64,000 nt of DNA. Source: an uncultured bacterium. Its GTDB lineage: Bacteria; Bacillota; Clostridia; Lachnospirales; Lachnospiraceae. The stretch covers positions 1 to 64,000 of the forward strand of contig CANRWP010000001.1 of NCBI GenBank assembly GCA_947643595.1, read 5' to 3'. A program made the position numbers and the translations under genes. The notes under the pieces are model-generated. The model had not been told where the DNA came from. It saw nothing but the letters and a program-made list of their open reading frames with translations, and searched no databases. Positions 9,809 to 21,070 of the stretch are shown here, one piece after another; position 1 is the stretch's first letter, and each line of letters opens with the position of its first letter.

Positions 9809-9849
9809 ATTGAAGTCTATATTTAAAAAATAAAAGGATGGTATTTCGC

Positions 9850-11916
9850 ATGAGTACGGATCGGCTTTCCCCCAAAAACGCCGCGTATACGATAAGAGAA
9901 AATTCGGAATATATGGCTGAACAGCATCAGGAAATTCTTCTGGGAAAGGAAGACGGTCTGGATGTATCACTTTATTCTAATCCGGAGTTCAACTGGCTTC
10001 AGATGGAGCAGATCAGAACCGGAATCAAGGATAAGGTGGATGTCTCGTGCTATGCCGATCCCACATACAGCTATGAGACGATGAAGCAGATCCGTCTTTC
10101 CATGTATTCTTCGATCGATCTTTCGGAATATCTGGAGAGGGGGTTCGTGGACGATGAGCTGGAGCAGATTCGTCTTGCCCTGGAAGACGGGCTCGCCATC
10201 GACGTGTGGCTTACTGACGATATGTATGTGCAGCAGATATATGAGATCAGGATCGGGCTGTATGAGGGGCTGGATGTCTCCGTATATGCGGATTCCCAGT
10301 ATAACTGGATGCAGATGAGGGAAATCCGCCTGGGGCTGGAAAAGAAGCTGAAAGTGTCCTGCTATACGAACGGTCTGTTCAGCCACTGGCAGATGAAGGA
10401 GATCCGCCTGGGACTGGAGGCTGGGCTGAATGTATCATCCTATGCGAAGCTGATCTTTTCCGGAACGGATATGAAGCAGAAGCGAGAGGATCTTATGAAC
10501 GAGAAGACCACCACCTGTGCATCTCCCGGTAAAGGCGGAACAGGCGGCAGAGCCGGAGCGAAAAAGGAATTCAGCATTTTTGTGGAGGATAACGGAAACC
10601 GTGTCTATGCGTTTATACAGCTCATAGCGGGAAATGTAGTTACGGAGGAAGATATTTACGGGGCATTGAAAAAGAGGGGCATCGTAAACGGTATAAACCG
10701 AGAGGCGATCGCCGAGATGATCAAAAAGAAAAAGACAAACGAGAAGATACTGATCGCGGAGGGGATACCCGCTGAGGACGGCAAAAACGGCTGGTTTGAA
10801 TTTTTTGTAAGGCTTGATCTTCCCCGCATTCCCGCTCCTCTTCCGGACGGCGGTGTGGATTATGTGAATATAGAAGCCTTTGAGATGGTGGATGAAGGGG
10901 AGCGGATCGCTGTCTACCATCCGGCGGAAAAGGGGAAAGACGGACAGAATGTTTTCGGGGAAGTGATTCACGGCAACGAGGGAGTGGAGAAGAAACCCCT
11001 GAAAGGGGAAGGCTTTACGATCGCGCCGGACGGAGTGACTTATCTGTCCAAATTGAGCGGAAAATTTGAGTATATAAACGGCAGGATCATTATCTCCAAT
11101 ATGATCATTGTGCGCGAGGATGTGACGGCGGTCACGGGAAAACTGGAAGTGGACGGGTCGGTTTATGTGATCGGCAGTGTTTATTCGGGCGGTTCTATCT
11201 CGGCTACCGGGGATATTATTGTTGAGCACAACGTGGAATCGGGCAGATTGGTGGCCGGCGGCAACATTATGATCAAGAAGGGAAGCTGCTCCAAAAATGA
11301 CTGTTTTATCGAAGCGGGTGGAGAAGTTTCAGGCAGTTTTTTTGAGGCAGCCAATATCGAAGCCGGGGGCAATATCCGGGCAAACTATATTATGAACAGC
11401 GACATCAACACGATGGAGAAGGTCATCGTGTCAGGCAGTAAGGGAATGCTCCTTGGCGGGATTACCCGTGCGGTAAAAGGGGTGGACACCTACAACCTTG
11501 GGAATAAATCTCATATTAAGACGGTACTGGAAATCGGGAAGAATAAACTCTATAATAAGCAGCAATCTGTCTTTGCGAAAAAGAGAGTACAGATACAGGA
11601 TGAGTTGATGATGCTGGAAGAGCGCTGGAACAGCATTCTGCAGTCGCTTCCGCCCAACAAGGAGCAGGCGGAGGAGATGATCAAAAAGCTGAATGCGGCG
11701 ATCGTGGCGAAAGATCATGAACTGGCAGATCTGGATGCGGAGGCGTCCAAATTGACGAGTCTGACGGAGCAGGACATGAAGGCGGTTATTGTGAGGGGGA
11801 TCGCCCATGAGGGAAGTATTGTGGAGATCAATACGATCAGATATGTGCTTCCGTCGCGGATAGCCAGGGTGATCTTTAAACTGAGGAACAAGAATGTCGT
11901 AATGGTGAAACTGTAG
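9850..11916 (+). CDS. FapA-like DUF342 protein with seven N-terminal 26-residue repeats
   Basis: A 688-residue protein. The ATG at 9850 is chosen because the AAGGA element abuts the earlier ATG at 9838. Residues about 21-218 are seven and a half copies of a strict 26-residue repeat with consensus L-x-V-S-x-Y ... W-x-Q-M-x-x-I-R-L-G-L-E. A Gly-rich linker leads to a DUF342/FapA domain (about residues 235-570), including the stretch of glycine-rich beta-solenoid turns (GSVYSGGSISATGDIIVEHN). A coiled coil (about 590-650) and a small C-terminal strand domain follow. FapA relatives affect cell-surface or motility functions, but this role is not proven. The next gene is 18 bases downstream. Confidence 0.85.
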   Translation: MSTDRLSPKNAAYTIRENSEYMAEQHQEILLGKEDGLDVSLYSNPEFNWLQMEQIRTGIKDKVDVSCYADPTYSYETMKQIRLSMYSSIDLSEYLERGFVDDELEQIRLALEDGLAIDVWLTDDMYVQQIYEIRIGLYEGLDVSVYADSQYNWMQMREIRLGLEKKLKVSCYTNGLFSHWQMKEIRLGLEAGLNVSSYAKLIFSGTDMKQKREDLMNEKTTTCASPGKGGTGGRAGAKKEFSIFVEDNGNRVYAFIQLIAGNVVTEEDIYGALKKRGIVNGINREAIAEMIKKKKTNEKILIAEGIPAEDGKNGWFEFFVRLDLPRIPAPLPDGGVDYVNIEAFEMVDEGERIAVYHPAEKGKDGQNVFGEVIHGNEGVEKKPLKGEGFTIAPDGVTYLSKLSGKFEYINGRIIISNMIIVREDVTAVTGKLEVDGSVYVIGSVYSGGSISATGDIIVEHNVESGRLVAGGNIMIKKGSCSKNDCFIEAGGEVSGSFFEAANIEAGGNIRANYIMNSDINTMEKVIVSGSKGMLLGGITRAVKGVDTYNLGNKSHIKTVLEIGKNKLYNKQQSVFAKKRVQIQDELMMLEERWNSILQSLPPNKEQAEEMIKKLNAAIVAKDHELADLDAEASKLTSLTEQDMKAVIVRGIAHEGSIVEINTIRYVLPSRIARVIFKLRNKNVVMVKL
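9958..10503 (+). repeat. Seven in-frame 78-bp coding repeats
   Basis: The repeat units start at residues 37, 63, 89, 115, 141, 167 and 193 of the DUF342 protein with no indel, each 26 codons. Units 1, 2, 5, 6 and 7 keep V-S-x-Y; units 3 and 4 are more divergent. The repeat is clear in protein but eroded in DNA, so it is old and under selection. Confidence 0.85.
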
Positions 11917-11934
11917 AAGGAGGTGGGATGGAAA

Positions 11935-13032
11935 ATGGCGCGTGATACAATTTTGATTCTGGAGGATGACAATGCCAGCTGCGCAAAACTGACCGAAATA
12001 TTTCAGGATAAATATAAGATTCAGACGGTTTTTACGGAGAGAGAAGGGATAGACTTTTTGAGAAAGCATGCCGCTTCGCTGGCGGTTGTTCTGGTAAACA
12101 TTATGATACCGGCCAAAGATAATTTTCAGATTTTGGGATGGCTCAGCGAGAAAGGCTTTTTAAACCGGATTCCCTTTATGATGATCACAAATGAAATGAC
12201 GGCGGGATATGAGAAGAGGGGATATGAGTTTGGTATAGTCGGTTATATCAGGAAACCTTTTTATCCGGAAGTAGTAAAACAGCTGGTGGAGAATGTCATC
12301 GAGGTGTTCCAGCACAGGGGACAGCTTGAGGTCATGGTGAAAAGTCAGAATGAAAAGCTGATAAAGCAGAATGCTCTGTTGAAAATGATGGCTGACAAGC
12401 AGAAGCATGCAAAGGAGATTCTGATTACGTCGCTGAGCAATATAGTGGAGTTCAGGAACCTGGAATCGAAACAGCATATAAAAAGGATTCGCGAGCTGAC
12501 TTTCTGTCTCGGAAACAGTGTCATGAAATTGTATCCGGAGTACGAGCTCACGGCGGAGAAGATCGATACGATCGGCTGGGCGTCCTGCCTGCATGATATC
12601 GGGAAAATTGTCATTCCGGACAATATCATACTGAAAGCAGGCAAGCTGACGGCGAATGAGTACGAGGTGATCAAGTCCCACACATCGAAGGGGGCGGAGA
12701 TCATAGAGAAAGTCATCGATCTGGACAACGGGGAGTTCTGTGATTGCGCCTACGATATAGCGAGGCATCATCACGAAAAGTATGACGGAAACGGTTATCC
12801 GGACGGCCTCAAAGGGGAGGAGATCAGCATTGCGGCTCAGATCGTTTCGCTGGTGGATATCTACGATGCGCTGACCTCAAAACGTATCTACAAGGCCGCG
12901 TATAAGACGGATAAGGCTTACCAGATGATCATAAGCGGCCAGAGCGGCGCTTTCTCCTCGAAACTTCTGAAAGCCTTTACCGAGGCGAGCAAGGAGTTTG
13001 AGAATATCGTGCAGAAGTATTGCGATGATTAA
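11935..13032 (+). CDS. Receiver-like/HD-GYP domain protein with altered phosphoacceptor
   Basis: A 365-residue protein. ATG 11935 is used because the GTG at 11923 lies within the ribosome site AAGGAGG. Residues 5-120 form a receiver fold with the acidic pair (EDD, 10-12), the Thr and the IRKP Lys intact. The phosphoacceptor position reads VVLVNIMIP, with Asn55 where Asp is expected. An HD-GYP domain follows: LHDIGKIVIPD, then RHHHEKYDGNGYPDG, both intact, so cyclic-di-GMP phosphodiesterase activity is expected. It probably works constitutively or through partner contact rather than by phosphorylation. Probably cotranscribed with the DUF342 gene. Confidence 0.88.
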   Translation: MARDTILILEDDNASCAKLTEIFQDKYKIQTVFTEREGIDFLRKHAASLAVVLVNIMIPAKDNFQILGWLSEKGFLNRIPFMMITNEMTAGYEKRGYEFGIVGYIRKPFYPEVVKQLVENVIEVFQHRGQLEVMVKSQNEKLIKQNALLKMMADKQKHAKEILITSLSNIVEFRNLESKQHIKRIRELTFCLGNSVMKLYPEYELTAEKIDTIGWASCLHDIGKIVIPDNIILKAGKLTANEYEVIKSHTSKGAEIIEKVIDLDNGEFCDCAYDIARHHHEKYDGNGYPDGLKGEEISIAAQIVSLVDIYDALTSKRIYKAAYKTDKAYQMIISGQSGAFSSKLLKAFTEASKEFENIVQKYCDD

Positions 13033-14152: not shown

Positions 14153-15124
14153 ATGAAAAATAAAGTAATTAAAATAACAGGTGCCGCCACTGCTGCATTC
14201 GGTGTTTTTATGGCGTTTGGCTGGTCTTTCTTTGATCTGATGATCCACTGCAGAGACAGGAGTCGGCCTGCAAATAAGAAATGGTTTGAGGAGTTGTCCC
14301 ATATAAAGATCAACCATCCGAGGAATAAGTTTGAAAAAGAATACGAAGAGGGCAAAGCCTGGTGTCGGCGGCAGAATATGCAGGACTGCTATATCAGAAG
14401 CAGGGACGGCTTGTTGCTGCACGGATTTTATCTGCCGGCGGCGAAAGCGGAACGTTATGTTCTGCTCTGCCACGGATATAAGGGCAGCGGTTTCGGAGAT
14501 TTTGCCTATACGGCAAAGTTTCTCCACGAAAACGGGTGCCGCCTGCTCTTCATTGATCAGCGCTGCGGCGGACAAAGTGAGGGAAAATATATTACCTTCG
14601 GGGCAAAGGAACAGTGGGATGTACAGCAATGGGCATACTATATTGCGAAGAGAAATAAAGAAAAGCTTCCCGTTTATCTCTACGGGGAATCTATGGGAGC
14701 CGCTTCGGTGCTCATGGCATCGGGGCACAAACTGCCGAAGGAGGTAAAAGGGCTGATCGCGGACTGCGGTTTCCGTTCCATGAAAGGGCAGCTTCAGGAC
14801 ATTGCCGCAGGGTGGTTCCATCTGAACCGTGTGGACCTGCTGCTGCTCAGGGTAGATTTGTTCTGCAGGCTTTTGGGGGGCTTCCGCATGAAAGATGCCG
14901 ACACGACGAACGCAATGAAAACCAACAAAAGGCCGGTTTTGTTTTTTCACGGGGGAAAGGATTCCTATGTAAGGCCTGAGAATACCCGATATAACTACGC
15001 ATTATGCCGGGCATCCAAAGAACTTGTCATTATTCCGGAGGCAAGACATCGATGCAGTCCGTATGTGGAACCGGAATTGTACAGGCGCAGACTTCTGGAA
15101 TTTTTTGCAAAATATGATCATTGA
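14153..15124 (+). CDS. Alpha/beta hydrolase, membrane-anchored
   Basis: A 323-residue serine hydrolase. An N-terminal hydrophobic segment (residues about 8-28) suggests a membrane anchor. The hydrolase core follows: LCHGYKGSG (oxyanion region), YGESMGAAS (nucleophile elbow), HGGKDSYVRPENT (acid) and EARHRCSPY (His). This arrangement resembles the YqkD-like or BD-FAE/cinnamoyl-ester-type hydrolases common in Clostridia. Substrate unknown. It is monocistronic, ended by the terminator at 15134-15166. Confidence 0.85.
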   Translation: MKNKVIKITGAATAAFGVFMAFGWSFFDLMIHCRDRSRPANKKWFEELSHIKINHPRNKFEKEYEEGKAWCRRQNMQDCYIRSRDGLLLHGFYLPAAKAERYVLLCHGYKGSGFGDFAYTAKFLHENGCRLLFIDQRCGGQSEGKYITFGAKEQWDVQQWAYYIAKRNKEKLPVYLYGESMGAASVLMASGHKLPKEVKGLIADCGFRSMKGQLQDIAAGWFHLNRVDLLLLRVDLFCRLLGGFRMKDADTTNAMKTNKRPVLFFHGGKDSYVRPENTRYNYALCRASKELVIIPEARHRCSPYVEPELYRRRLLEFFAKYDH

Positions 15125-15133
15125 TCATACCAT

Positions 15134-15166
15134 GGCGTCAGCTTAATGTGCTGGCGCTTTTTTTAT
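15134..15166 (+). terminator. Terminator after the alpha/beta hydrolase
   Basis: GCGTCAGC pairs with GCTGGCGC (one G-U), followed by a run of seven T. Confidence 0.8.
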
Positions 15167-15192
15167 TTCACAGGAAATTGTGTCCTGTGAAA
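15166..15192 (+). promoter_or_regulatory. Inverted repeat upstream of the condensation-domain gene (possible TetR operator)
   Basis: TTTCACAGGA (15166-15175) and TCCTGTGAAA (15183-15192) form perfect 10-bp arms around AATTGTG. It lies about 110 bases before the first gene of the acyl-assembly cluster. The cluster's TetR regulator is a candidate ligand, though no copy of the site was seen before the tetR-type gene itself. Confidence 0.45.
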
Positions 15193-15299
15193 TGTTTCAG
15201 ACAGTTATATGCAAAATGTTTGTTAAGTCCCCAAAAGGGTAGAATTTAAATATAAAATGTGTTAACTTCACAAAAGGACAGGAAAACAGGAGGTTGCAA

Positions 15300-16685
15300 A
15301 TGAAAGAATACTATCCTTTGACAGCGGCACAGAAGCTGCATTATAACTGGATGAAAACATACAAAACACAGCAGGTATCGGGAGTCAGCGTCGTAGCGTC
15401 TTTAAAGGCTCAGTTGGACTTCGGACTTTTAAAGAAATGTATCCAGCTGGAATTTGAGCGTTACGGCTGTATGCGGATTCGCTTTACAAAACCTGACGGA
15501 AAAGGCAGAATAAAGCAGTATATTGCGGAGAAAGAGACAAGGGATATCCCCATAAAGGATTTATCCGGTATGAGTTTGCCGGAGGCGGACGGGCTGATGC
15601 AGCAGTGGGCCTATGAGACTTTTGACGGAGATGATATTCCGCTCTGTGACGTAACCATGGTAAAGCTTCCCGAGGGCTTTAACGGATTTTTTATACACAT
15701 GGATCATAGACTGATCGATTCCTGCGGACTGGTGGTGATGATCAACGACCTGATGCAGCTCTATACCCATTTCAGATTCGGGTCTCCTTACCCGGATGAT
15801 CTGGCGGATTATGAGGAGGTTCTGGCGAAAGATTTAAAGAGGGCAAACAACGAAAAACGCTTTGCCAAAGATAAGAAATTCTGGGACGATCAGTTAGATG
15901 CGCTGGGAGAACCGCTTTATTCCGATATCCAGGGGCCTTCCGTTCTGGAAGAGGCGAGAAAGCGTCACGGTGATCCGGCATTGAGATCGGCGGATATCGA
16001 GCTCAAAAATCTGTTTGTGAAAGTAAAGGATTATTATCTGGAGCCGGTGCCCACCAAAAATCTTATCGATTTCTGCATGAACCACCAGCTTTCCATGACA
16101 AATCTTATACTGTTGGGAATCCGGACTTATTTGTCGAAGGTAAATAACGGACAGGAGGATATCACGATCGAGAATTTTATCTCGAGACGTTCCACGCATG
16201 ACGAGTGGACTTCCGGCGGCAGCAGGACGATCATGTTCCCCTGTAGGACCGTGATTTCTCCAGAGACCGATTTCCTGTCGGCGGCATATGAGATTCAGAA
16301 TGTCCAGAACCGCATATATATGCACAGCAATTACGACCCGGAGCTGATCAGGGAGGAAATGAGGAAACGATATCATACACCGGAGCACACAGTCTATGAA
16401 AGCTGTTACCTCACCTACCAGCCCATGCCGATAAAGTTGGAAAACCCGCATCTTGTCCAGATGCCGCAGCATTCCAAATGGTTTGCCAACGGCGCTGCGA
16501 CCAAGAAGATGTATCTGACCGTATCCCACACCGGGGAGGGCGGCATGAATTTTTCTTATCATTACCAGACAGCACATTTGGAAGAGCATGACATGGAGCT
16601 GTTGTATTACTATATGATGCGTATTCTCTTTAAGGGGATCGCAGAACCGGATATGAGTATCGGGGAAATTATAGAACAAGTGTAA
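15300..16685 (+). CDS. Stand-alone condensation-domain protein (NRPS C-domain superfamily)
   Basis: A 461-residue free-standing C-domain; ATG 15300 has CAGGAGG 6 bases upstream. The N-terminal YYPLTAAQKLHYNWMK is typical for condensation or chloramphenicol-acetyltransferase-like folds. The catalytic motif HHxxxDG reads DHRLIDS (residues 135-141): the active His136 and structural Asp140 are kept, while the first His and the Gly are changed, as in unusual C domains and ester- or amide-forming acyltransferases. With the carrier protein and ligase it would join an acyl thioester to an amine or alcohol. No adenylation or thioesterase domain is attached. Confidence 0.85.
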   Translation: MKEYYPLTAAQKLHYNWMKTYKTQQVSGVSVVASLKAQLDFGLLKKCIQLEFERYGCMRIRFTKPDGKGRIKQYIAEKETRDIPIKDLSGMSLPEADGLMQQWAYETFDGDDIPLCDVTMVKLPEGFNGFFIHMDHRLIDSCGLVVMINDLMQLYTHFRFGSPYPDDLADYEEVLAKDLKRANNEKRFAKDKKFWDDQLDALGEPLYSDIQGPSVLEEARKRHGDPALRSADIELKNLFVKVKDYYLEPVPTKNLIDFCMNHQLSMTNLILLGIRTYLSKVNNGQEDITIENFISRRSTHDEWTSGGSRTIMFPCRTVISPETDFLSAAYEIQNVQNRIYMHSNYDPELIREEMRKRYHTPEHTVYESCYLTYQPMPIKLENPHLVQMPQHSKWFANGAATKKMYLTVSHTGEGGMNFSYHYQTAHLEEHDMELLYYYMMRILFKGIAEPDMSIGEIIEQV

Positions 16686-16749
16686 GCGCTATCGTACAGC
16701 GATTATAGGTAAAGTTGCGAAGGCGACTATAATTTAGGAGGAGAATGAT

Positions 16750-16983
16750 ATGACACAGGAAATGCAGTTTAAAACAATTATTGCACAGTATTGCGAAATG
16801 AAACCGGAGGATATGACAAATGATTTGAGATTCAGGGAGGATCTGGGCTTTAGTTCTCTTGATTTTATGTCCTTTTTGGGAGAGCTGGAGGATACCTTTG
16901 ATATAGAGTTGGAAGAGGAAAATGCGCTGCAGGTCTTTACCATAGGGGAGGCGCTTGCGTTACTGGAAACATTGCAGCAGTAG
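16750..16983 (+). CDS. Acyl/peptidyl carrier protein
   Basis: A 77-residue acidic four-helix carrier protein. The phosphopantetheine site is EDLGFSSLDF with Ser36 (consensus DSL reads SSL). It is short and free-standing, between the condensation protein and the ligase, with TTAGGAGGAG before its ATG. It probably carries the acyl group activated by the ligase. It differs from a housekeeping AcpP in context, since no fatty-acid synthesis genes are near. Confidence 0.9.
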   Translation: MTQEMQFKTIIAQYCEMKPEDMTNDLRFREDLGFSSLDFMSFLGELEDTFDIELEEENALQVFTIGEALALLETLQQ

Positions 16984-16995
16984 GGACGGAGGCTT

Positions 16996-18546
16996 ATGAT
17001 GGAAAAGTTGATTTTGGATATTCTGGAGGAGAGCGAAAAAAAGTTTTCGGAAATGACAGCGGTAAAGTGGCTGAAGAAAAAGGAGATTTATGAGATTAGC
17101 TACCGCGGGATAATGGAAAATGTCAGGGCGGTGAGAAAAGGGCTGGCTGCGGAAGGCTTTCAGGGAAAACACATCGCGCTGATCGGCGGCAGTTCCCTGG
17201 AGTGGATAGAGGGTTATCTGGGGATTATCACAGGCAGGACAGTTGCCGTCCCCCTGGATGCGATGTTGCCGGTGGAGGATCTGGCGGATCTGATCAACCG
17301 TTCCGATTCCGAAGCGCTCTTCTTAAGTCCGAAAAACCAGGGGCTTTTGGAGGAACTTTTGACAGAATGTCCTGATTTGAAAAAAATATGGCTGCTGCAG
17401 GAGGAGCCGGCGGAATTATCCGACGGGAGAGTAACCTGCCTCGGCAAATTAAAGGAGACGGGCAGAGAGACAGAAACGGATTCGGAGAGGCCGGATAGTG
17501 GAGATACCGCAACGATTATTTTCACTTCCGGAACCACCGGAAAAAGTAAAGGTGTTATGCTGACGCAGGGAAATCTGGCGTCCAATGTGCTTTCTGTGGA
17601 TTTTGCATTGGAGCCCGGAACGGTAATCTTAAGCGTTCTTCCAATCCACCACGCGTTCTGCCTGGTGATGGACTGGCTGAAAGGTTTTTCCCTCGGGACA
17701 ACGGTGTGTATCAATGATTCCCTCATGCATATGGTAAAAAACATGGGCATCTTTAAACCGGAGGTAATCCTGATGGTGCCGCTGATGGTGGAGACCATTT
17801 ACAAGAAACTTTCCGCTGCCAGCCCGCTTATACCCAAAAAGATGGTGGCGGCAAAGGCATTCGGCGGAAACTTAAAGATTCTTATTACCGGCGGCGCCCA
17901 TCTTGATCCGTTTTATATTGATAAATTTGCCGATTACGGGATCGGCATTTTTGAGGGATACGGTATGTCGGAATGTTCTCCGGTCATTAGCTCGAATACG
18001 CCGGAGCGCCATAAGGCGGGGTCTATCGGAAGACCTCTTTCAAATGTCCAGATTTCCTTTGAGGACGGTGAAATACTTGTAAAAGGCAGCAGCGTGATGA
18101 AAGGCTATTACAAAATGCCGGAGGAGACGGCTGATACCCTGCGGGACGGCTGGCTTCACACGGGAGATAAAGGGTATCTGGACGAGGACGGTTTCCTGTT
18201 CATCAACGGACGTATCAAAAACCTGATCATTCTTTCAAACGGAGAAAATATTTCCCCGGAAGAGATCGAGAACAAATTAGCGCTGGGGAAACTGGTCGGG
18301 GAAGTGATCGTGACAGGGGAAAACAACGGCCTTACTGCAAGAATTTATCCGGATCAGGATGTGGTGAAAGCCAAACATATGAGTGAAGAGAAGATCAGGA
18401 CGGAGCTGCAGGCGTTTCTGGATAGCTATAATAAATCCCAGCCTACCTACCGCCAGATCACCGGGCTGGTGATCCGGAAAAATCCGTTTATCAAAAGTAC
18501 GACAAAAAAGATCAAACGACAGGAGGTTGAGATTGACGAGCCGTAA
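16996..18546 (+). CDS. Acyl-AMP ligase (fatty acyl-ACP/CoA synthetase-like)
   Basis: A 516-residue ANL-superfamily enzyme. The P-loop-like motif IIFTSGTTGKSKGVM, then GYGMSECSPV, the Asp of LHTGDKG and the C-terminal KSTTKKIKRQ with the catalytic Lys are all present, so it should be active. VILMVPLMVETIYKKL is typical of long-chain acyl ligases rather than amino-acid adenylation domains. It starts 13 bases after the carrier protein, and loading a fatty or aryl acid onto that protein is the simplest reading. Confidence 0.88.
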   Translation: MMEKLILDILEESEKKFSEMTAVKWLKKKEIYEISYRGIMENVRAVRKGLAAEGFQGKHIALIGGSSLEWIEGYLGIITGRTVAVPLDAMLPVEDLADLINRSDSEALFLSPKNQGLLEELLTECPDLKKIWLLQEEPAELSDGRVTCLGKLKETGRETETDSERPDSGDTATIIFTSGTTGKSKGVMLTQGNLASNVLSVDFALEPGTVILSVLPIHHAFCLVMDWLKGFSLGTTVCINDSLMHMVKNMGIFKPEVILMVPLMVETIYKKLSAASPLIPKKMVAAKAFGGNLKILITGGAHLDPFYIDKFADYGIGIFEGYGMSECSPVISSNTPERHKAGSIGRPLSNVQISFEDGEILVKGSSVMKGYYKMPEETADTLRDGWLHTGDKGYLDEDGFLFINGRIKNLIILSNGENISPEEIENKLALGKLVGEVIVTGENNGLTARIYPDQDVVKAKHMSEEKIRTELQAFLDSYNKSQPTYRQITGLVIRKNPFIKSTTKKIKRQEVEIDEP

Positions 18547-18595
18547 GTTTCCCGGGAGCACAGGACGGTAAAATTTTTGTTGTGGCTGATCCGGA

Positions 18596-19174
18596 TCAGG
18601 ACATAAAAGGAAGCATGCCCGATATGAAAGCGTGCGTCAGAATGTTGGCGACGGCTTCCGCGGGTACCGAAAAATTGTCATTGGTCCATTTATGGAGTAC
18701 GCCGAGGGTGCTGCCGATGGTACAGGCGATCATATAGGAAAGTTCCTCCTTGCTGTGCCGGGAGGATGCTGTGTTTTGTGTGACATCCGCCACAAAGCGA
18801 TGGAACATCATCAGTGCTTTTTCGAAAAATTTGTCTCCTCTGGGACTCCGGAGGAGATTTGCCAGAAACGGATTATTCATTGTGTAACCGCAGATAGTCA
18901 CGAAAAATGACTTGCATATATCTTTGTCATCTTTTGGATGAAAGGTTTTCATAAGGGAAAAGATATCATCGATAGTCTTGTCCTCGATGGCAGTCACAAG
19001 AGCCGGAATGTTTTCGTAGTGGTTGTAAAAGGTGCTTCGGACAACTCCGGCTTTCTTTATCACATCGGATACGGTTATTTTTTCCAGATCCTTTTCTTTC
19101 AGAAGCAGAAAAAACGCATCATAAATAGCTTCGTCGGCCACATAGTACCTCTCGTCCTGTATTTCGTGTTGCAT
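18596..19174 (-). CDS. TetR/AcrR family regulator
   Basis: A 192-residue regulator with an N-terminal helix-turn-helix (TVSDVIKKAGVVRSTFYNHYEN, residues about 34-55) and a helical ligand domain of the TetR_C type common in Firmicutes. AAAGGAG precedes its ATG. It converges on the acyl-ligase gene and probably controls the condensation/ACP/ligase cluster, perhaps sensing an acyl product. Confidence 0.85.
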   Translation of the reverse strand: MQHEIQDERYYVADEAIYDAFFLLLKEKDLEKITVSDVIKKAGVVRSTFYNHYENIPALVTAIEDKTIDDIFSLMKTFHPKDDKDICKSFFVTICGYTMNNPFLANLLRSPRGDKFFEKALMMFHRFVADVTQNTASSRHSKEELSYMIACTIGSTLGVLHKWTNDNFSVPAEAVANILTHAFISGMLPFMS

Positions 19175-19219: not shown

Positions 19220-21070
19220 TCAAATCCTCCGGTTTTCAAAATATGGAAACCATTCCACTGCTTCCAGAATATCCCGGAAATCTTCTCTGGGAGCCAGGTC
19301 AATATAGCGTTCCAGAAGAGCGGACTCCTCATTTTTATATTTACCGTAGAAGATATCGAATAAATTATGTCCGCGCATGTAGATTTTAATTTCTTCCATG
19401 TGTGTTTTCACATCTTCCACAGAGGTAAGATTCTGCCCGAGAACCGCTGTCAGATGTCTGCCGCTGGTGATGCGGTGCAAATACTCTTTCCATTTTTCCA
19501 GAAAGATTTCATAGAAGGCGTCCTCGGATTCGATGATACCGAGCAAAGCCATGATTTTGGGGTTCAGAAAGTAGTTTTCAAAGGAATAATAGCGCAGAAT
19601 CAACACGTTCTCCGGACGAACCCGGGGAAGCATATCCATATCTTCCAGATTCCGCTCTTCATAGTAGCGGCAGAGCTGTTGTCTCAGCCGGGATGGGTCG
19701 TCGCCGTCGCCGTCCCGGATCATCAGAAACTGATCTCGAAGATAGATCTGGTTCATGTATTTCAGATTTGCGTAGGTCTTGATGTTGGTACAGCTGTTGG
19801 TGGTGAGGATGGCGATTCGGGACAGATTTCCGTCCGAATCATAGGTTTCGGAATAATATTTCCGAAGCAGCAGCGGGAGACGGCTCTTGTCCTGTCTTCC
19901 CTCCACGATAAAGACAAAGTTCACGTTCATCAGATCGCCCGCCGTATAGCCGAGATCATCCAGAATGGCGCTGATATCCGTTTTTTCCCGGATGCCGGAA
20001 CAGCCCTCTTTGTCCAGAATCACCTGTCGGATCTGCCTGCTGTTGAAATTGGGCAGAAGATTGGGCGAATGGGTGGAAAAGATGACCTGATTTTTTCGGG
20101 ACAGCCGGTACAGGATTTCGCCGGCAACTTTTTGCAGTCTCGGGTGCAGAAAGATCTCCGGATCCTCGATCATGATGATGCTGGGCAGATTTTCCCTGAT
20201 CTCCGTATAGGCCTCCAGTAGGGAAAACAGATAGATGCACCGCATGCCTTTTCCCATCCGTCCAACTGGACGGACCAGATTCTGGGCAGGAGAGTAAATA
20301 TTCGTGGTGACGGAGAGCATCTTTTCCATATCCCGGTTTATCGAATAAAGTATTTTCTCCCGCCCGCCGTTTTTGCGGAAATTTTTATTGACTCTGCGGG
20401 CGAATTCGTCCAGATTCAGCTGGTACAGCTTGTAATCCAGAAGTTTTGAGACTTCCATCACATTCAGTTCCGCCGGGCGTTTTTGCTGAATCAGACCGAT
20501 ACAGCGAAAACACTGGCTGCATTTCCTGGCCTGATTGAACATGCAGCAGCCTGAACGCATTTTCAGCAGCAGTTCGTCCTTCTGCAGGAGAAAAAGATCA
20601 TTCTGAAGCTGCTCCAGGCTGCGCTCTGTATCCACGCAATAAATTTCAGGAAAAACTTCCTGTATGTACGGGTTGTGTTTTCTGAAACCGTCCTGATAAC
20701 GGATCTGTCCGTTGCGGTTGGCTGACATGGTAAAGGTCAGGACGTTTTCAGCGAAAGAAGGGAGTTTTTTCCGAAAATCCTGCATCCACGCTTCTTTTTT
20801 CCGGTATCTGCTGACAACGCCTTTTTGCCGCAATAGATCCAGATCTTTCCCTGTAAATTCCAGAGAGACCGTGATCTCGATATTTGCACCGTCCTCCTCG
20901 AAATCCTCCGGGCAGATCCGGTAATCGCCGCCTGCCGCCCGGACTGCGTTCAGTACGGTGGTCTTGCCGGTGTTATTCTGTCCCACCAGAATCAGCGCAT
21001 TCTCGATATCCTGAATATGCATATGGCGGATGGATTTAAAATTCTGGATGCAAAGTTCTTTGATCTTCAT
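19220..21070 (-). CDS. OLD-family ATPase with C-terminal TOPRIM nuclease domain
   Basis: A 616-residue protein. Residues 1-45 carry an SMC/RecF-like start with Walker A GQNNTGKTT (30-38). Walker B (IIMIEDPEIFLHP, about 306-318) and the STHSPNLL His switch follow. The TOPRIM domain has FIVEGRQDK (acidic Glu) and LMIRDGDGDDP (Asp pair), so nuclease activity is possible. An unusual cysteine cluster, CC-x7-C-x2-C-x2-C at residues 175-190, lies within the ATPase insert and may bind zinc or an iron-sulfur cluster. No GajB-like helicase or other known partner is adjacent, so it looks like a single-gene OLD system, possibly defensive. Confidence 0.85.
   Translation of the reverse strand: MKIKELCIQNFKSIRHMHIQDIENALILVGQNNTGKTTVLNAVRAAGGDYRICPEDFEEDGANIEITVSLEFTGKDLDLLRQKGVVSRYRKKEAWMQDFRKKLPSFAENVLTFTMSANRNGQIRYQDGFRKHNPYIQEVFPEIYCVDTERSLEQLQNDLFLLQKDELLLKMRSGCCMFNQARKCSQCFRCIGLIQQKRPAELNVMEVSKLLDYKLYQLNLDEFARRVNKNFRKNGGREKILYSINRDMEKMLSVTTNIYSPAQNLVRPVGRMGKGMRCIYLFSLLEAYTEIRENLPSIIMIEDPEIFLHPRLQKVAGEILYRLSRKNQVIFSTHSPNLLPNFNSRQIRQVILDKEGCSGIREKTDISAILDDLGYTAGDLMNVNFVFIVEGRQDKSRLPLLLRKYYSETYDSDGNLSRIAILTTNSCTNIKTYANLKYMNQIYLRDQFLMIRDGDGDDPSRLRQQLCRYYEERNLEDMDMLPRVRPENVLILRYYSFENYFLNPKIMALLGIIESEDAFYEIFLEKWKEYLHRITSGRHLTAVLGQNLTSVEDVKTHMEEIKIYMRGHNLFDIFYGKYKNEESALLERYIDLAPREDFRDILEAVEWFPYFENRRI

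Follow-up and report, generated by a model that had tools for sequence, protein, structure and literature searches.

A fatty acid amide (FAA) operon, credited to Chang et al. (2021, Nat Microbiol 6:792) as cited in PMC13142362 and PMC13060934, encodes a condensation (C) protein, an acyl carrier protein (T) and an acyl-AMP ligase (A), and the trio was named 'CTA operon' in the later preprint (PMC13060934). The C protein OaaC of Coprococcus eutactus, its ligase OaaA and its carrier OaaACP were reconstituted and gave fatty acid amides from aminovaleric acid or gamma-aminobutyric acid (PMC13142362). OaaC accepted several acyl chain lengths, and no product was obtained from oleoyl-coenzyme A (CoA) and OaaC, so that the ligase and the carrier are needed in the Oaa system (PMC13142362). 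In Blautia and Coprococcus catus, the operon tracks with acyl ethanolamides; oleoyl-, palmitoyl- and linoleoyl-ethanolamide are higher in CTA-positive than in CTA-negative Blautia species, and B. wexlerae fed with dopamine and oleate formed oleoyl dopamine (PMC13060934). Furthermore, fatty acid toxicity is relieved by amines (PMC13060934). Here, these systems are compared with a locus of an uncultured Lachnospiraceae bacterium (GCA_947643595.1), located in the first 64,000 nucleotides of contig CANRWP010000001.1, the stretch of DNA analyzed in full and referred to as the window. This gut bacterium very probably carries an FAA ('CTA') operon at the locus, with a ligase that loads the carrier and a C protein that makes an N-acyl amide.

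The condensation protein and its operon

The positions of the C, carrier, ligase and TetR genes given in a preliminary description of the DNA were borne out by gene calling and Pfam (Table 1). The C gene starts with the ATG at 15300, which is preceded by GGAGG, and encodes 461 amino acids (aa); the mechanical open reading frame list has a TTG at 15294 upstream of it. The reading frames of the trio are all open and its motifs all intact, with the pantetheine serine of the carrier within GFSSLD and the motifs A3, A5, A7, A8 and A10 present in the ligase.

The search against characterised stand-alone C domains that had been proposed in that description led to OaaC. Among solved structures, the C protein matched PDB entry 12KH, which is OaaC (PMC13142362), with an E-value of 5e-186, the runner-up having 5e-6. 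The two proteins are 54% identical and 78% similar across 459 aa, i.e., the whole length, and by this match to a solved structure the fold of the C protein is settled. His136 and Asp140 had been pointed out correctly before; they belong to the motif D135-H136-R-L-I-D140-S141. DHRLIDS (residues 135-141) does not match the canonical HHxxxDG of nonribosomal peptide synthetases (NRPS) and fits the FAA C-domain pattern (D/H)HxxxD(S/A/G). The family motif is given as (D/H)HxxxDS with mostly Ser or Ala at the final position (PMC13142362). The window version was found in 89 of 114 aligned relatives, and OaaC has DHRLMDS. In a tree of stand-alone C proteins, from which canonical NRPS domains were left out, the window protein, OaaC and the Blautia proteins form one fully supported clade, with OaaC outside an inner clade of the window and Blautia proteins. 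No further C domain was found in the window genome (87% complete). An ordinary NRPS fragment was rejected as the protein is free-standing and the sole C domain of the genome. The starter condensation domains of lipopeptide NRPSs share its fold family and use a fatty acyl donor, but the window protein differs from them in being free-standing and in having DHxxxDS.

The gene order, whose conservation had likewise been proposed as a check, was analyzed in a species-genome scan that revealed 154 relatives; 80 of them, with a C identity of 77-99%, were retained (including Blautia wexlerae, B. luti, B. glucerasea and Eubacterium ruminantium). C, carrier and ligase follow each other in 62 of the 62 relatives whose flanks were long enough for comparison, with C identities as low as 77%, as well as in most members of a distant clade (~36% C identity). 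This conservation is far beyond chance. A convergent TetR gene is located at the same place in 58 of the 62, and, apart from the upstream hydrolase, no other flanking genes are kept among the relatives except in one near-identical strain.

The C. eutactus trio oaaC-oaaACP-oaaA resembles the window trio in that its proteins are all free-standing and of the same kinds, that both C proteins have DHxxxDS, and that amino acid adenylation, a thioesterase and an acceptor carrier are lacking. The CTA operon of B. wexlerae is closer: the gene order is the same, the carrier is 70% identical, and the upstream hydrolase (62%) and the convergent TetR (60%) are found as well. The cut-off for CTA operons in PMC13060934 is at least 70% identity over 80% of the length for C and A each to catalogued Clostridia CTA proteins; compared with the operon of B. 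wexlerae, a species counted as CTA-positive there, and not with the catalogue itself, the window C reaches 82% and the window A 72%. In the B. wexlerae genome, the C of this operon is the sole stand-alone C protein, and the other matches are located on one contig of NRPS-type genes. The two operons differ by sequence divergence only; the products of the Blautia species were measured in culture, and those of the window are predicted from its sequence.

The preliminary description had held that the pathway could not be assigned to a named product and had named the assignment of the C protein to a family of known reaction as a result that would speak against it. The protein does fall into such a family, that of OaaC, and the pathway class is that of the fatty acid amide or acyl amine CTA operon. 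The expected course of the reaction, with the ligase loading an acyl chain on the carrier and the C protein passing it to a small amine, agrees with the mechanism established for their Oaa homologues. The trio is thus a real and intact copy of an already described pathway and not a new one; its family membership and active-site residues, as well as the gene order, are evident from the sequence.

Outside of the scan, an unbiased sample of 200 evenly drawn Lachnospiraceae genomes was searched. Stand-alone C relatives are present in 30 of these (~15%) at 31 loci, which comprise a close clade with OaaC, a distant clade with ~33-38% identity to the window and two intermediates. Within the genus, the gene was found in four of nine genomes, including that of the window, and it is therefore a patchy accessory trait.

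Two types of deviating loci were observed. At L030:6001-7976, a TetR gene directly follows C and no carrier or ligase match was found; this operon is possibly decayed or misassembled. The stand-alone C proteins of L091 and L092 (genomes G046 and G149), ~40% identical to that of the window, form a separate long-branched lineage and have no match to the window carrier, ligase or hydrolase within 1.5 kb on either side of C. This lineage may work in another setting.

Table 1. Features of the CTA locus in the window.
Feature	Position	Strand	Evidence
Alpha/beta-hydrolase, 323 aa, directly upstream of the C gene	14153-15124	+	Pfam Hydrolase_4 (E=3e-18)
Intrinsic-terminator-like stem in the gap between hydrolase and C	15134-15158	+	9 pairs, 6 G-C, T-run
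Dyad of 31 bp with centre ATTTCACAGGA-7-TCCTGTGAAAT, possible operator	15164-15194		Dyad search of the window
Conserved upstream block TTTCAGACAGTTATATGCAAAATGTTTGTTAAGTC...GGGTAGAAT, probable promoter/operator region	15195-15245		Alignment of relatives' upstream regions
Condensation protein, stand-alone, OaaC-type (C of the CTA operon)	15300-16685	+	Pfam Condensation (E=1.6e-35)
Acyl carrier protein (T of the CTA operon)	16750-16983	+	Pfam PP-binding (E=1.8e-10); NCBIfam acyl carrier protein models (lowest E=3.6e-15)
Acyl-AMP ligase (A of the CTA operon)	16996-18546	+	Pfam AMP-binding (E=1.2e-60), AMP-binding_C_3
TetR-family regulator, convergent with the operon	18596-19174	-	Pfam TetR_N, TetR_C_8 (TetR_C_8 E=3.2e-7)

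The upstream hydrolase and the candidate operator

The three genes of the cluster were delimited correctly in the preliminary description, but the conserved hydrolase upstream of them was left out. It is a conserved neighbour outside the published three-gene definition of the operon, and neither a hydrolase nor a TetR gene is mentioned for the operon in PMC13142362 or PMC13060934. The hydrolase has a hydrophobic helix at its N terminus as well as the triad Ser180-Asp270-His299; both features are widely kept. Its best solved-structure match is the esterase 5g59, a weak one (7e-10). It is regarded as a putative surface esterase or amidase. The helix would place the catalytic part outside of the cell; for this reason, a role as type II thioesterase was thought unlikely. 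The extracellular substrate of this membrane-anchored enzyme is probably an ester or amide that belongs to the same pathway.

The functional unit may be larger than three genes, in which case the hydrolase would work at the cell surface to release the fatty acid or the amine from lipids, or else degrade the finished amide. The arguments for and against this are evenly balanced, and it adds to the CTA assignment more than it competes with it. The hydrolase adjoins C in 55 of 63 close relatives and at 24 of the 31 loci of the unbiased sample, which spans two clades with only ~36% identity between their C proteins; in the distant clade, the distance of 39-110 bp between hydrolase and C is operon-like. 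In addition, the helix is present in 83 of 91 hydrolases, and the triad is near-invariant. On the other hand, the hydrolase is absent beside C at seven of the 31 sampled loci, hydrolases of the same family occur away from C loci too, and its substrate is putative. In the window itself, a terminator-like stem parts the hydrolase from C, which suggests that the hydrolase is transcribed separately there.

The cluster had been described as being under a TetR regulator. The TetR gene is indeed present, but it is convergent and located downstream, so that its control of the operon is inferred. A 31-bp dyad, TATCAAACA-N13-TGTTTGATA, was identified 94-275 bp before C in 33 relatives by a search that left two positions free to vary and allowed at most one further mismatch; it was found neither elsewhere in the 1.0 Mb searched nor in five shuffled-sequence sets. 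The window has a dyad at the same position as many of these relatives, which is perfect at its centre but unlike theirs in sequence. It is unique in the window, with 0 occurrences expected by chance. As it was not found in the close relatives L003-L007, it was rejected as a conserved operator and is weak as an operator for this copy. Only the adjacent block was counted as conserved, which is the case in nearly all aligned upstream regions of the relatives, Blautia included. Autoregulation of TetR through the dyad was also rejected, since the dyad of the relatives was never found before the TetR gene. Of the possible interpretations of the upstream dyad and block, a putative TetR operator is the most likely, and the operon would probably be repressed by the TetR protein via the conserved upstream site.

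Taken further, the Lachnospiraceae FAA locus could be a four-gene system, in which a surface hydrolase acting on dietary lipid esters or acyl amides couples fat breakdown to amide synthesis, or reverses the latter, under a dedicated fatty-acid-responsive TetR-type operator. This proposal is tentative and somewhat less probable than the larger functional unit as such.

Proposed reaction and product

By analogy with the characterised relatives, the ligase of the window trio would use ATP to activate a free long-chain fatty acid, which it would then put on the holo carrier protein; a phosphopantetheinyl transferase is encoded in the window genome. With the help of the OaaC-type C protein, a free small amine would attack the thioester, and an N-acyl amide would be released. 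N-acyl amides made from fatty acids and amines of the gut are the most likely products. Diet, host or other microbes would supply the fatty acid and probably also the amine. The 87%-complete window genome gave no match to a group II pyridoxal phosphate-dependent decarboxylase (PF00282) or to EutB (PF06751), and the amine thus probably comes from outside the cell.

Several points weigh against this assignment. The reaction is deduced from characterised relatives and not from products of the window organism or of very close relatives, and the evidence from Blautia sets species that have the operon against species that lack it and does not come from knockouts. The amine may differ from that of OaaC at the given sequence identity, and OaaC, outside the clade of the window and Blautia proteins, may differ in its preferred amine. 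Furthermore, the best named matches of the ligase are ordinary acyl-CoA ligases; hence, the loading of the carrier rests on gene order and the Oaa precedent.

The ligase could accordingly be an ordinary fatty acyl-CoA ligase with unrelated or decayed neighbours, its named family matches being acyl-CoA, succinylbenzoate- and malonyl-CoA ligases. This is highly improbable in view of the C-T-A order in all 62 relatives and most of the distant clade, the open frames and intact motifs of the trio, and the failure of oleoyl-CoA to give a product with OaaC. Some C-domain-like enzymes make esters, and the acceptor of the window C protein is predicted from homology, but a transfer of the acyl chain to an alcohol is very unlikely as well, because the nearest characterised homologue, which has the same motif, forms amides and the acyl ethanolamides that track with the operon in Blautia and C. 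catus (PMC13060934) are of the amide class.

Neighbouring genes and biological meaning

Beside the TetR gene, an OLD-family-like AAA ATPase of 616 aa is encoded at 19220-21070 (-). In a defence library, it matches Old best (E=1.1e-33) and also AriA and GajA. It adjoins the TetR gene in the near-identical strain L002 too, was not detected in the other fetched relatives and is possibly a recent strain-specific neighbour. Upstream of the hydrolase, a gene at 9838-11916 (+) encodes a 692-aa protein with a motif repeated in its N-terminal third. The product of the next gene, at 11923-13032 (+), is a response regulator whose output domain is of the HD type (Response_reg, HD_5), and this HD protein is found in L002 too.

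The lipid amides of this operon class resemble human signalling molecules, and its products activate the human receptors GPR119, GPR132 and PTGER4 (PMC13142362, PMC13060934). In one preprint, GLP-1 secretion was raised by Blautia acyl amines. For the bacterium, the likely benefit would be the removal of toxic free fatty acids, and the effect of the product on host receptors would be incidental. The window copy adds one more carrier species of a known operon class. The leads that result from the comparison are the conserved hydrolase partner and the operator-like sequence upstream of C, which is conserved as well; the control of production by fatty acid supply could be due to either.
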